Shown here: piece by piece, positions 3,077 through 6,288 of the stretch
Position numbering within the stretch: the stretch's first letter is position 1
Layout of the letters: every line of letters begins with the position of its first letter
Source of the DNA: a candidate division TA06 bacterium SM23_40
GTDB taxonomy: Bacteria > LJUI01 > SM1-40
Assembly: GCA_001303705.1 (NCBI GenBank)
Contig: LJUI01000143.1
Location: forward strand, 1 to 6,288
Direction: 5' to 3'
DNA: 6,288 nucleotides
Translations under genes and position numbers: made by a program
The notes under the pieces: model-generated
What the model saw: the letters and a program-made list of their open reading frames with translations, nothing else
Database searches by the model: none
What the model was told of the DNA's origin: nothing

Positions 3077-3835
3077 ATGACTCGACTGACTCTCGCGGCG
3101 GTCATTGTGTTTGCGGTCGCGCTCGTTGGGTGCCAGCAGGAGGCGCCGCTGCCCGTGGCAAGCGATTCCAGCAACCCTGAGGGGCCGTTCTTCGGCTCGG
3201 AGGTGCCGGTCGGTGTGCTCACGCCGGAGTACACCACCGGTTCGGCCATGTTGACCCCCGAGCAGGTCACGCAGTTTTTCGGCATCGACGAAGTGACCCT
3301 CAGCGCGATGGAAGGCCTGGATCATGTCGTCATCGATTGCTGGACCGTCGACACCATGGACTACTATTGGGATCTGCTCCACGAGAACTACAAGTTCTTC
3401 GGTGAGGAGCACATCCGTCACGTCATCTTGTGCAAGCTCAATCAGGGTGACTGGATCACGGCGGACATCGGTTGGTTTGAGTGCAGGGACTTCCAGCCGC
3501 CGCTGCTCCCGTTGAACCAGTACCTGATCGCTATGCTCAATGACGTGGTGTGGGAACCGGTGTACGAGAAGAACTTCTGGCTGATGTGGGTTGACGTGAC
3601 TTCGGGTGGCGTCGGGCTGCCGTGGGGCATCCCGCTCGATTGGGTGGCTGGCGTCGATTTCAACGTGAACACAGCCAATTTCAAGTACGATGATGTGTGT
3701 GGATGGAAGTACCCCGATATGATCATCTTCGGGCCCCATCCGCCGTTCCCGCCACCTCATCCGTTCCCGTTCAGTCTCCCGGGCGAGGATGGCGAGACCA
3801 GGCCGTGGTGTTTCCTGATCAACCCGTGGGACTAG
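3077..3835 (+). CDS. Trp-rich lipoprotein of unknown function
   Basis: The product is 252 residues, or 254 if translation starts at ATG 3071. It opens with a lipoprotein signal peptide: Arg3, a hydrophobic core (LAAVIVFAVA) and a lipobox LVGC with Cys19 as the lipidated residue. It should be anchored in the inner or outer membrane facing the periplasm or surface. I do not recognise the mature domain. It holds 12 tryptophans and five cysteines besides the lipidated one, which could form disulfides after export. Residues 219-232 are a Pro/His/Phe run (GPHPPFPPPHPFPF), and the protein ends in LINPWD. A Ser/Pro linker follows the lipid anchor before the folded part begins near the TPEQVTQFFGI segment. 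It stands alone: a strong promoter and long leader lie upstream and a perfect hairpin lies 30 nt after the stop. Codon use is that of a normal GC-rich gene and there is no sign of disruption. Confidence 0.85.
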   Translation: MTRLTLAAVIVFAVALVGCQQEAPLPVASDSSNPEGPFFGSEVPVGVLTPEYTTGSAMLTPEQVTQFFGIDEVTLSAMEGLDHVVIDCWTVDTMDYYWDLLHENYKFFGEEHIRHVILCKLNQGDWITADIGWFECRDFQPPLLPLNQYLIAMLNDVVWEPVYEKNFWLMWVDVTSGGVGLPWGIPLDWVAGVDFNVNTANFKYDDVCGWKYPDMIIFGPHPPFPPPHPFPFSLPGEDGETRPWCFLINPWD

Positions 3836-3865
3836 AAACGAGATAGGGTCTGATCAGATATCCCC

Positions 3866-3901
3866 GCAGGAGCCTTCGATTCCAGGATCGAAGGCTCCTG
3901 C
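3866..3901 (+). terminator. Perfect 15-bp hairpin terminator after the lipoprotein gene
   Basis: GCAGGAGCCTTCGAT (3866-3880) and ATCGAAGGCTCCTGC (3887-3901) are exact reverse complements around a 6-nt loop, starting 30 nt after the TAG stop. No T-run follows, so it may act as a U-less terminator or 3'-end stabiliser. Because it is symmetrical it could work from either strand. Confidence 0.65.
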
Positions 3902-4067
3902 TGCGTAGTGCCGCTTTCGATGTTTGTGGATGTAGCAGGGGGCATCTCACCCGGATGAGATCGCCTCCGGGAGATCAACTCAAGGACCGATGTCTGATCT
4001 TCGTGCCGCATCTGTTCGATGACATCAGTCCGACATAGATCCATGATAGTGCCTGTCGGCCTAGGGC
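3902..4067. other. Intergenic spacer without a recognisable gene
   Basis: No ORF with a convincing start or composition was found on either strand. One weak hairpin is present: CCCGG (3950-3954) pairs with CCGGG (3967-3971) and, across a 2-nt bulge, ATCT (3944-3947) pairs with AGAT (3972-3975). Nothing else was seen. Confidence 0.4.
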
Positions 4068-4188
4068 TGGTCAGACTCTGTTCTGTAACAGCGAAGTGAT
4101 AATGTCCTATTTAGGTAAAATGGGACATTTCTATTTTGCTAAGAACGGGACAATTCTTATTTGCCTCTACATGGCCAGACTCTGTTCT
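4068..4188 (+). repeat. 17-bp direct repeats flanking the first promoter-linked repeat element
   Basis: TGGTCAGACTCTGTTCT (4068-4084) recurs as TGGCCAGACTCTGTTCT (4172-4188), 16 of 17 identical, enclosing 87 bp. The right copy starts on the base after the second 25-bp unit of the repeat element ends (4171), and its last T is the first base of the -35 box. This arrangement looks like a duplicated insertion target or the product of a local duplication. Confidence 0.6.
4101..4171 (+). repeat. Promoter-linked repeat element, copy A (two 25-bp units plus an inverted half-site)
   Basis: Two tandem 25-bp units lie at 4122-4146 (GGGACATTTCTATTTTGC...) and 4147-4171 (GGGACAATTCTTATTTGC...). The stretch 4114-4171 matches 5155-5212 at 50 of 58 positions. 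To the left, AATGTCCTATTT (4101-4112) is the inverse of the unit head and can pair with 4118-4129 through 12 bp with one G-U pair. The element is AT-rich against GC-rich surroundings. Tandem and inverted copies of a short site suggest protein binding, either by a regulator or by a transposase at an element end. Copy A ends 16 nt before the -35 box at 4188. Confidence 0.75.
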
Positions 4189-4216
4189 TGACTTCCATAG
4201 CTGCGGGGCGTATATT
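4188..4216 (+). promoter_or_regulatory. Sigma-70-type promoter for the small secreted protein
   Basis: TTGACT (4188-4193) and TATATT (4211-4216) are separated by 17 nt, with five of six consensus matches each. The predicted start near 4223 gives a short leader of about 27 nt before ATG 4250. The heptamer TTGACTT is shared with the promoter of the PorV-like gene. Confidence 0.75.
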
Positions 4217-4249
4217 TGGAAGCGACAGAAAAGGGAGGAGGTCGTCCAT

Positions 4250-4801
4250 ATGAAGAGCTGCATAGTGGTTGCCGGCGTTCTATCGCTTCTGGTAGGCCTT
4301 CCCTCTGTGGGCGCGGAAAGCCCGGATGAGGAGAGAGGCGCTGGCGTACAGGCATATTCGGTGCCGACATACCCGTCAGCAACCCTGGAGCGATCCGAAG
4401 GGCTGAGCCTATCCGGGACTCCGGTTGGGTCCGGACTGCCCCGCCGTCCCGGGGTCTCCGTGGGGCGTCTCTCACTCCTCGATCCCTCGAAGATCCGCAT
4501 GGCCCACGGCCTCTCGCTCGGCTTTGTCGGCGGTAGTGGGCAGAGGGGTCGATTTGAGAGCCGGTACCTGAACCGCATCTTCTATCCATTCACGCCCTCG
4601 CTAAGCCTGCGGCTCGATCTCGACTACGTCGTTGAGCCATTCGGATCTGCGAGTCAGAGTGAGATTCTGCCGGGTATGGTGCTCCGTTATGAGCCGAGCG
4701 ACCACCTCCTGCTGCAAGTGCAATACCGTACGTACAGAAACATGCGCTCGAGCTCCTGGTGGGCGAGTGATTTGTCCTCGGATCAGTCTCCACGCTGGTG
4801 A
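4250..4801 (+). CDS. Small secreted protein with outer-membrane-type beta strands, function unknown
   Basis: The product is 183 residues. ATG 4250 is chosen because GGGAGGAGG (4233-4241) lies 8 nt upstream and a standard signal peptide follows: MKSC, hydrophobic IVVAGVLSLLVGL, and probable cleavage after SVGA at residue 22. An in-frame upstream ATG (4136) lies inside the repeat element and before the promoter, so it is rejected. Residues about 25-70 are Ser/Pro/Gly-rich and probably unstructured. Residues 74-160 alternate polar and hydrophobic residues as in beta strands (LSLLDPSKIRMAHGLSLGF, LSLRLDLDYVVEP, MVLRYEPSDHLLLQVQYR). The string LSLLDPSKIRMAHGLSLGF resembles a conserved segment I associate with uncharacterised envelope proteins of Eisenbacteria-like lineages; this is from memory and unverified. 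It is too small for a typical porin, so it may be a periplasmic or outer-membrane-associated beta protein. It has its own promoter and terminator. Confidence 0.85.
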   Translation: MKSCIVVAGVLSLLVGLPSVGAESPDEERGAGVQAYSVPTYPSATLERSEGLSLSGTPVGSGLPRRPGVSVGRLSLLDPSKIRMAHGLSLGFVGGSGQRGRFESRYLNRIFYPFTPSLSLRLDLDYVVEPFGSASQSEILPGMVLRYEPSDHLLLQVQYRTYRNMRSSSWWASDLSSDQSPRW

Positions 4802-4833
4802 CAGGAGCTCAGTCTGATGATCGTCGTTGTGTG

Positions 4834-4871
4834 CAGGCCGCTGTCTGAGAGTGGCCTGTTTGGTTCTTTCC
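4834..4871 (+). terminator. Intrinsic terminator after the small secreted protein gene
   Basis: CAGGCCGCT (4834-4842) pairs with AGTGGCCTG (4850-4858), a 9-bp stem with one G-U pair and a 7-nt loop. It is followed at once by a T-rich tract (TTTGGTTCTTT). It begins 33 nt after the stop codon, a typical position. Confidence 0.75.
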
Positions 4872-4986
4872 GCGAGGAGGTTGGAGCTCTGTGCGGGATC
4901 CCCGCAGAACCGGCGCCGGAGCTGTGAGGGCCATGAGAAGAGGATTTCGTCGGGGCGGGACCTTCTGGCTGGTGCCTTCGAGCGGT
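4872..4986. other. Spacer without a recognisable gene
   Basis: The whole 4802-5384 gap (583 nt) holds a terminator, two repeat copies, a promoter and a leader, but no convincing gene. ORFs crossing it have Arg/Ser-rich compositions with no recognisable domain and poor starts. In this part nothing specific was seen. Confidence 0.4.
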
Positions 4987-5046
4987 GGGGCAACACAGGA
5001 CATGTGCTCTCCGCCAACAACCGGTCATTTCTATTCTGCCGCGCAG
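4987..5046 (+). repeat. Promoter-linked repeat element, copy C (decayed)
   Basis: The stretch aligns without gaps to copy B at an offset of 166. The left flank (GGGGCAACACAGGACAT against GGGGCAAAATAGGACAT) matches at 15 of 17 positions. The second unit (CGGTCATTTCTATTCTGCC) matches CGGACATTTCTAATTTGCC at 16 of 19. The first unit (4997-5021) keeps its ends but has a diverged middle. The two 25-bp units keep their spacing. No TTGAC box follows 16 nt downstream, unlike copies A and B. Confidence 0.55.
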
Positions 5047-5152
5047 ACGGAAGAAGGTCTACACACCATAGCCTGACCACCCCTGGAGGAGGCGTTACAA
5101 GCCGCCTTCGTGGAGAGAGCGGAAGAAGCAGGCAGAGAGAGCTGCCTGTGCC

Positions 5153-5212
5153 GGGGCAAAATAGGACATTTCTATTTTGCTGAGAACCGGACATTTCTAA
5201 TTTGCCTTCACA
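5153..5212 (+). repeat. Promoter-linked repeat element, copy B (two 25-bp units)
   Basis: Units lie at 5163-5187 (AGGACATTTCTATTTTGC...) and 5188-5212 (CGGACATTTCTAATTTGC...). The first contains a perfect inverted repeat, GCAAAATAG (5156-5164) with CTATTTTGC (5172-5180), around GACATTT. In copy A the equivalent arms pair with two G-U wobbles. Copy B ends 16 nt before the -35 box at 5229, exactly as copy A does for its gene. The AT-rich element contrasts with its GC-rich flanks. Confidence 0.75.
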
Positions 5213-5228
5213 GTGGGGCAAAACGAGG

Positions 5229-5257
5229 TTGACTTTTCGCGGCCTCTTCGCTATCCT
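5229..5257 (+). promoter_or_regulatory. Sigma-70-type promoter for the PorV-like gene
   Basis: TTGACT (5229-5234) and TATCCT (5252-5257) are separated by 17 nt, with five and four of six consensus matches. The predicted start near 5264 gives a leader of about 120 nt before GTG 5385. The shared TTGACTT and the equal distance to the upstream repeat support it as a real promoter. Confidence 0.65.
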
Positions 5258-5384: not shown

Positions 5385-6288
5385 GTGAAACGATCGACCA
5401 GAGAGCCTCATATATTTCAGGAGGTCATTGCTCTGCTGGCGGGAGTGACCCTGCTTATCCTGGTCCTCTCGCCTTACCCGTGTTCGGGCGATGTGCATCC
5501 CAAGGCCGGGACGACAGGACTCTCGTTTCTCAGGATCGATGTCGGCGGCCGCGGTGCGGCCATGGGGGGAGCGCATACGTCGGCCAGCGAGGGCGCATTC
5601 TCGATGTACTGGAATCCGGCCCTGCTCGCCCGGGTAAGGGGCTATGATCTCGCACTCATGCACACCGAGTGGTTTCAGGACATTCGCTACGACTATGCGG
5701 CCTTTGCCGCGGGTGGCGGAGACCAGGCTGTCGGGCTCTCTGTCGGCGCGCTGTACATGGGTGATATCGAGTACCGCATAGACACGCGGCAGGATCCGAT
5801 TGGACATTTCAGTGCCGGGGACTATATGGTGGCTGTCAGCTATGCCCGATCGGTCCAGGGAGTTCATATCGGGGCTACGCTCAAGGCGATCCACGAGCGC
5901 ATCTACCACGATACTGCGAGCGGCATCGCCGGCGATATCGGATTCGCATACGAGGTGGTGCACGTCTTCCCTGGAATCCGCCTGGGCGGCACCATCCAGA
6001 ATCTCGGCCCGAAATTCCGTTTCAGAGATGTTCCGTTCAAGCTCCCCACACAATTAAGAGCGGGGATATCGTACCACTCCCCCATGGGGATGCGGATCGG
6101 TCAGCTGGTTGTGGCCGGCGATGTCACCAAGCCCAACGACGGTGATGTGAGAGCGGGCTTTGGGGCCGAATACGACTATAATGATCGGTTCCAGGTGCGT
6201 GCTGGCTACCGTGTCGGCTATGACACTGCTGATCTGACCGCGGGCATCGGCGTGAAGTTCAAGTCGTACCGCGTCGACTACGCCTTCG
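5385..6288 (+). CDS. PorV/PorQ family outer-membrane beta-barrel protein (3' end outside window)
   Basis: GTG 5385 opens a frame that stays open to the window end, giving 301 visible residues. An N-terminal export signal is present: KR at 2-3 and a hydrophobic core at about 14-29 (VIALLAGVTLLILVLS), with cleavage probably near residue 35. The family signature follows: GTTGLSFLRIDVGGRGAAMGG (42-62) and then YWNPALL (75-81), the pattern typical of PorV/PorQ proteins. The rest alternates polar and apolar residues in repeated strands, such as GFGAEYDYNDRFQVRAGYR, as expected for an outer-membrane barrel. The visible end, YRVDYAF, resembles the penultimate strand of the family, so probably only a few tens of residues are missing. 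In Bacteroidota PorV carries type IX secretion cargo to the sortase PorU, but the wider family also occurs in lineages where its role is unproven. The gene has its own promoter with repeat copy B upstream. Confidence 0.88.
   Translation, partial: MKRSTREPHIFQEVIALLAGVTLLILVLSPYPCSGDVHPKAGTTGLSFLRIDVGGRGAAMGGAHTSASEGAFSMYWNPALLARVRGYDLALMHTEWFQDIRYDYAAFAAGGGDQAVGLSVGALYMGDIEYRIDTRQDPIGHFSAGDYMVAVSYARSVQGVHIGATLKAIHERIYHDTASGIAGDIGFAYEVVHVFPGIRLGGTIQNLGPKFRFRDVPFKLPTQLRAGISYHSPMGMRIGQLVVAGDVTKPNDGDVRAGFGAEYDYNDRFQVRAGYRVGYDTADLTAGIGVKFKSYRVDYAF

Follow-up and report, generated by a model that had tools for sequence, protein, structure and literature searches.

The DNA examined here, referred to as the window, is a stretch of 6,288 nucleotides from the candidate division TA06 bacterium SM23_40 (contig LJUI01000143.1). 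It contains two related repeat copies, A (4114-4171) and B (5155-5212), which are identical at 50 of 58 bases. Each is followed by a promoter whose TTGACT hexamer starts 16 nt beyond the end of the copy; all promoters, here and throughout, are predicted from sequence. The 16-nt linkers of the two copies have 3 positions in common, and the -35/-10 spacers, both of 17 nt, have 2. A promoter scan recovered the two promoters as TTGACT-17-TATATT (A) and TTGACT-17-TATCCT (B), so that the geometry on which the original prediction was founded has been borne out. No match in Pfam was found for the 183-aa ORF downstream of A, and an Rfam scan of the whole window returned no structured RNA. Further upstream, at 3871-3900, an inverted repeat (AGGAGCCTTCGAT...ATCGAAGGCTCCT) lies directly 3' of a 254-aa lipoprotein-like ORF, of which it is probably the terminator. 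The features of the region are as follows.

4068..4083, unstranded: left TSD (target-site duplication) copy of element A, TGGTCAGACTCTGTTC, 15/16 identical to 4172-4187 (repeat family D9)
4084..4171, + strand: element A, an 88-bp miniature, non-autonomous and IS1202-type, TGTAACAG...CTCTACA, with TSD and TGT/ACA ends
4123..4139, + strand: inner end-repeat unit of A (repeat family D1), a putative transposase-binding site
4148..4164, + strand: outer end-repeat unit of A (repeat family D1), 25 bp from the inner unit
4172..4187, unstranded: right TSD copy of element A, TGGCCAGACTCTGTTC, the 16-nt linker of the original prediction
4188..4216, + strand: predicted promoter targeted by element A, -35 TTGACT at 4188-4193, 17-nt spacer, -10 TATATT at 4211-4216
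4250..4801, + strand: ORF downstream of A, 183 aa, with a signal-peptide-like start
5023..5039, + strand: degenerate additional end-repeat unit (repeat family D1)
5038..5164, + strand: 3' end of a decayed transposase gene (...RRRKKVYTP*PDHPWRRRYKPPSWRERKKQ...AK*), with homologues in contigs C102 and C182
5155..5212, + strand: right end of element B, two end-repeat units 25 bp apart, ending TTCACA (repeat family D1)
5213..5228, unstranded: 16-nt spacer, where the right TSD copy of B would be expected; 4985-5000 may be a decayed left copy (12/16)
5229..5257, + strand: predicted promoter targeted by element B, -35 TTGACT, 17 nt, -10 TATCCT
5385..6288, + strand: gene downstream of B, encoding a PorV / UPF0164-type outer-membrane protein and continuing past the window end

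The linker of A is repeated, at 15 of 16 positions, immediately before a left end, a match at 4068-4083 that the original prediction had overlooked. Thus, the element is 88 bp long, extending from 4084 to 4171, and is flanked by a TSD whose length of 16 bp fits the long-TSD group of the IS1202 family, described below. The sequence at its left end, TGTAACAGCGAAGTGATAATGTCC, agrees with that found in the same place in intact insertion sequences (IS), for example L189 (TGTAACCGCAAAGTGATAATGTCC). The terminal inverted repeat of A is weak, at 14/26 compared with 17-24/26 on the same score in its relatives. The left end of the miniature bears a single repeat unit, and the right end bears two, 25 bp apart. 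By analogy with the family, these end-repeat units may be regarded as transposase-binding sites.

Element B retains its right end only, the left TSD copy being at most a possible 12/16 match. The transposase tail of B carries an HPWRR motif, and an HPWR-type C-terminus is common to intact ISNCY transposases. A tblastn search of plasmids with the degraded C-terminal peptide of B yielded nothing useful. When an rve or ISNCY transposase was sought in the window and in the source assembly, none was found beyond the C-terminal remnant at 5038-5164. The source IS is therefore either absent or unassembled, and A and B have been assigned by their ends, by the TSD of A and by the transposase remnant of B.

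When up to 3 mismatches are allowed, the draft genome of 2.9 Mb contains 16 occurrences of the 18-nt unit pattern, against 0 of a reversed control pattern. Ten of the copies in this genome were inspected, and in eight of them (A, B, C68, C102, C43, C7, C168 and C65) TTGAC is found 16-17 nt past the end; these copies are on different contigs and most have a -10 element. The other two, C182 and C92, have a right end without an obvious promoter. C65 is a second miniature, in which ~88 bp lie between near-identical direct repeats that are followed by TTGACA, and C68 is a third, of 114 bp with a decayed TSD. Elsewhere in the genome, the targeted promoters include those of valS and of genes encoding an NfeD-type protein and a zinc carboxypeptidase.

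These repeat units also make up both inverted ends of elements that encode an ISNCY transposase in Burkholderia ubonensis. L047 has two units at each of its ends, and L132 has two at its left end. Against NF033594 (ISNCY; cut-off 250), five of the intact relatives whose ends match reach 377-492 bits, and an alignment of 25 transposases shows D149, D209, E259 and Q266 to be invariant, which places a glutamine at E+7. The transposase matches the TnsB profile with an E value of 1.7e-8. Its fold, in a model with a mean pLDDT of 69 built on a shallow alignment, is predicted to be TnsB/IstA/MuA-like, with N-terminal helix-turn-helix bundles, an RNase H domain and a small beta domain. Viral contigs scanned with the transposase of L085 contained no relatives. 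L048, a match on an Acinetobacter plasmid, was rejected as a relative and has not been counted as evidence, a true IS481 transposase being present between its repeat ends.

The IS1202 family was defined by Harmer, Pong and Hall in 2023 by a transposase that is TnsB-like and has Q at E+7 (PMC10132070). Its members have imperfect terminal inverted repeats of 24-26 bp with 5'-TGT/ACA-3' ends, and close to both termini there is a further transposase-binding repeat (PMC10132070). One group has a TSD of 5 bp and inserts beside dif, with 5 bp between the element and the XerC site (PMC10132070). For a second group, with long TSDs (about 15-28 bp), the 2023 study found no conserved target; its members are IS1202, ISCARN53/62/63, ISTde1, ISShha1, ISVbsp4 and ISHahy13 (PMC10132070). 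No partner protein similar to TnsC/TnsD, IstB or MuB is known in the family (PMC10132070). The elements described here resemble the long-TSD group in their TnsB-like DDE transposase with Q at E+7, their TGT/ACA ends, their doubled end repeats and their TSD of 15-17 bp. They differ from the group as published in that a target, the -35 edge of sigma70-type promoters, is assigned here, the ISfinder members having been compared by description. The window copies differ further in being miniature or decayed and in lacking a transposase. IS1202 itself generates a TSD of 27 bp, and that of ISSeq2 is likewise in the range of 27-28 bp.

The assignment of a target draws on intact elements collected from whole-genome searches with the L085 transposase and its relatives. 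Nineteen were chosen on two criteria only, a TSD of 14-18 bp and an inverted-repeat score of at least 17/26; five of the 19 are from one genome, where they occupy five different promoters. The TSDs of these relatives are 15-17 bp long and mostly perfect. In 17 of the 19 elements, the TSD adjoins the TTG that starts a -35 box, and 16 of these 17 have a -10 element matching at 4/6 positions or more, 16-18 nt further on. Across the 38 flanks, TTG is present 18 times at offset 0, compared with a mean of ~0.7 at each other offset (P ~1e-21). The promoters include TTGACA-17-TATAAT at L132 (Massilia timonae), TTGACA-17-TATGAT at L178, TTGAAA-17-TATTAT at L179, TTGCAT-17-TATAAA at L183, TTGATT-17-TATCAT at L189 and TTGACA-16-TATAAA at L151 (Anaerolinea thermolimosa). 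The intact L132 element is 1476 bp long (3712-5187). L271, found later with a family HMM, has a TSD of 16 bp followed by TTGATT-17-TATATT. The two exceptions among the 19 are L144, in which the -35 box begins 2 nt inside the TSD, and L146, which lacks the TTG but has a good -10-like TACACT. The promoter may be at either end of the element, about equally often among transposase-bearing elements, so that orientation is free. The TSD-like matches at L073 and L150 were discarded as chance or tandem repeats, and fell below the threshold for the terminal inverted repeat.

Two further observations concern individual insertions. L198 and L178 have promoter-like TTG boxes on both outward flanks, adjoining the TSD or 1 nt from it, as if they had landed between two divergent promoters. 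G164, a genome in a single contig, holds several divergent copies (L182, L190, L192, L194 and L227), some with stop codons; they belong to a long-branch member, and L182 also adjoins TTGACA-17-TACAAT.

An unselected scan approached the question from the element ends. A collection of 84,980 species genomes was scanned for the end GGACATTTCTAYTTNGCNTTGACA, whatever sequence flanked it, giving at least 119 ends with 115 distinct flanks. Among the matches listed, TTGAC begins at +15 in 6 of the 115 distinct flanks, at +16 in 21, at +17 in 7 and at +18 in 2, that is in 36 of 115 where ~0.1 per position is expected; TTG alone is found at +15 to +18 in 52 of 115 flanks among these listed matches. TTGAC next to element ends is more frequent than chance. 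A -10 element of at least 4/6, at 16-18 nt past TTGAC, is present at 21 of the 36 targeted ends (58%) among the matches listed, compared with 23 of 114 intergenic TTGAC sites of equal G+C (20%; P 4e-5) and with 100 of 1280 coding TTGAC sites on the same contigs.

The order of events can be read at one insertion. The flanks of L191 in G250, when joined, align across the junction to the sister species G112 (L243) with 89% identity. In G112, the segment duplicated at L191 occurs once, and the tRNA-Lys promoter, TTGACA-17-TAGAAT, is unchanged. Since the empty site already has the promoter, the promoter is older than the insertion next to it. One alternative named in the original prediction, in which the end of a mobile element happens to place promoters, is therefore correct as regards the mobile element and wrong as regards the bringing of a promoter. 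Further copies in G250 are at the promoters of tRNA-Phe, tRNA-Leu and rpmG, and tRNA genes are targets in other genomes also (tRNA-Leu at L189, tRNA-Lys at L132 and tRNA-Asn at L029).

Taken together, these data make it very probable that the repeats of the window are the ends of small non-autonomous relatives of the IS1202 family (ISNCY), inserted at the -35 edge of promoters that already existed, with contact to the polymerase as the presumed means of targeting. At the level of sequence, the joining points are seen at the -35 edge and 15-17 bp upstream of it, with the core promoter retained. On this reading, the TnsB/IstA/Mu-like DDE transposase of the family inserts the element in either orientation, joining one strand to the very base at which the -35 box of a sigma70-type promoter begins, at about -37, and the other strand 15-17 bp further upstream, at about -52. 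Gap repair then duplicates the 15-17 bp between the joining points. As a consequence, the length of one TSD always separates the element end from the -35 box, and the core promoter is left intact. The transposase is proposed to find its site by contacting promoter-bound RNA polymerase, through sigma region 4 and/or the alpha-CTD.

Capture of the promoter-bound holoenzyme is most likely the mode of targeting, because the -10 element matters in addition to the -35 box and because tRNA and ribosomal promoters recur; from the preference for promoters over intergenic TTGAC sites that lack a -10 element, we infer that the transposase recognises promoters bound by RNA polymerase. Alternatively, the transposase may read promoter DNA directly, through the -35 hexamer and perhaps the DNA upstream of it, with the polymerase uninvolved and the -10 element present because most intergenic TTGAC sites belong to promoters. 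The strongest and most precise anchor is indeed the TTG of the -35 box, and no additional protein would be required. However, the -10 element is found at only 20% of intergenic TTGAC sites, against 58% of targeted ones among the matches listed and 16 of 17 in the TSD-verified set. The -35 box, moreover, varies (TTGACA, TTGAAA, TTGATT, TTGCAT, TTGCCA, TTGTAA) whilst the -10 element is kept, and tRNA promoters are targets repeatedly. Direct reading is accordingly a doubtful explanation, albeit one with a real claim to attention.

Recruitment by the polymerase can be stated more generally. The target DNA upstream of the -35 box is where the alpha-CTD normally binds at sigma70 promoters. We consider it reasonably probable that an IS group spread over many phyla uses the promoter-bound holoenzyme as a landing platform, joining at the upstream edge of its footprint (-37/-52) by means of the transposase alone. 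In the cousins with a 5-bp TSD, dif-bound XerC is the presumed guide. Insertion at a distance of one TSD from a host protein on the DNA may be a general rule of the family, which is supported by the published dif case, where the TSD stands between the IS and the XerC site.

It might also be supposed that insertion occurs anywhere, and that only elements just upstream of a core promoter persist, as harmless. A site at about -52 spares the core promoter and should be nearly neutral. Selection cannot, however, fix one cut at the exact edge of TTG in 17 of 19 elements while the other cut varies by 2 bp. Recent copies with perfect TSDs, as in G250, occupy the same position, and the related 5-bp-TSD transposases have another exact target, dif. 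Survivorship is for these reasons very unlikely.

The main reading of the original prediction, a site for a regulator that contacts RNA polymerase in a shared envelope regulon, drew on the fixed promoter spacing with free linkers and on the exported proteins encoded by both window genes. The fixed geometry stands, and positioning by the polymerase survives as an idea, with contact as its presumed basis, but the identity of the repeats as regulator sites does not. The 25-bp units are IS1202-type end repeats, A has a TSD and TGT/ACA ends, and elements that bear a transposase have these units at both of their ends. In addition, the empty site in a relative demonstrates insertion, and intact IS copies in other phyla show the same geometry. 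An envelope regulon is ruled out by the targets, since the element-bearing promoters drive unrelated genes (valS, tRNA genes, rpmG and those for the zinc carboxypeptidase and NfeD-type protein). A regulator site is consequently scarcely credible. That the element carries its own outward promoter beyond its end, or that the 58-bp element and promoter were duplicated whole, would account for the identical spacing in every copy and for an element end that itself reads TTGACA, but the chance of either is negligible, as the copies have nothing in common in their linkers, spacers and downstream genes beyond a few chance positions, the TSD puts the element border before the promoter, the promoter is on the left side in half of the elements, and its presence in the empty site refutes both.

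Insertion at promoters is found in a wide range of bacteria, the named loci spanning Acidobacteriota, Armatimonadota, Pseudomonadota and Chloroflexota. Relatives with a 5-bp TSD, namely L230, L238, L241 and L047, adjoin dif-like sites instead, as does L237, for which no TSD was found; as a positive control, this reproduces the result of the 2023 study (PMC10132070). These dif-adjacent 5-bp-TSD relatives form one clade (100/100), apart from the promoter-targeting elements. Under a midpoint root, the only rooting applied, the dif clade is nested among the promoter hunters. The window element does not belong with the dif hunters: its TSD is 16 bp, it is adjacent to a promoter, and dif is found only beside the 5-bp clade. 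For L236 and L240, on Kosakonia and Klebsiella plasmids and in a clade near the dif hunters, no TSD, dif site or promoter was found; this clade is perhaps the published group without a TSD.

The promoter-targeting elements resemble the ISAjo2-type hunters of dif and pdif in inserting one TSD length from a protein-binding site, in having a related transposase and in having no known accessory targeting protein. They differ in that ISAjo2-type elements insert on the XerC side of dif with a 5-bp TSD and in a fixed orientation, and form a separate clade, whereas the promoter group inserts in both orientations. The predicted fold is shared with the transposases of Tn7 (TnsB), IS21 (IstA) and phage Mu, which differ in their targets and partner proteins. 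Ty1 and Ty3 integrate at narrow, harmless positions upstream of genes by way of RNA polymerase III/TFIIIB (PMC10050235, PMC8632968). The likeness to Ty1/Ty3 is one of mode, that is position-specific insertion upstream of transcription starts with tRNA genes among the targets; these eukaryotic LTR retrotransposons are unrelated as elements, and contact with the polymerase is only presumed in the bacterial case.

In the open-access PMC library, which is the literature covered here, no earlier report was found of promoter targeting by IS1202 or of an IS that targets promoters. The present analysis offers an answer to a question left open in PMC10132070, namely where IS1202-family elements with a long TSD insert. 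The data suggest that transposition by a single protein can be directed to sigma70-type promoters, precisely to the base pair, and can leave the core promoter intact. If the holoenzyme does serve as the platform, such insertion would be the equivalent in bacteria of Ty1/Ty3 targeting, and the dif-hunting clade may stem from a pool of 'promoter hunters'. Elements of this kind could serve as natural promoter markers in uncultured bacteria and as a tractable model for the guidance of a TnsB-like transposase that has neither TnsC/TnsD nor a guide RNA to direct it, and they may be a steady source of rewiring upstream of -52.

Two minor observations can be added. L233 and L234, on plasmids of Microvirga ossetica, are ISNCY transposase elements present at up to 13 places per replicon, and their ends, TGTAGAACCCCG...TTCTGACA, are different. 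The outermost bases of many elements (TTTGCCTTGACA) read TTGACA, an outward-facing perfect -35 hexamer 16 nt from the real one.
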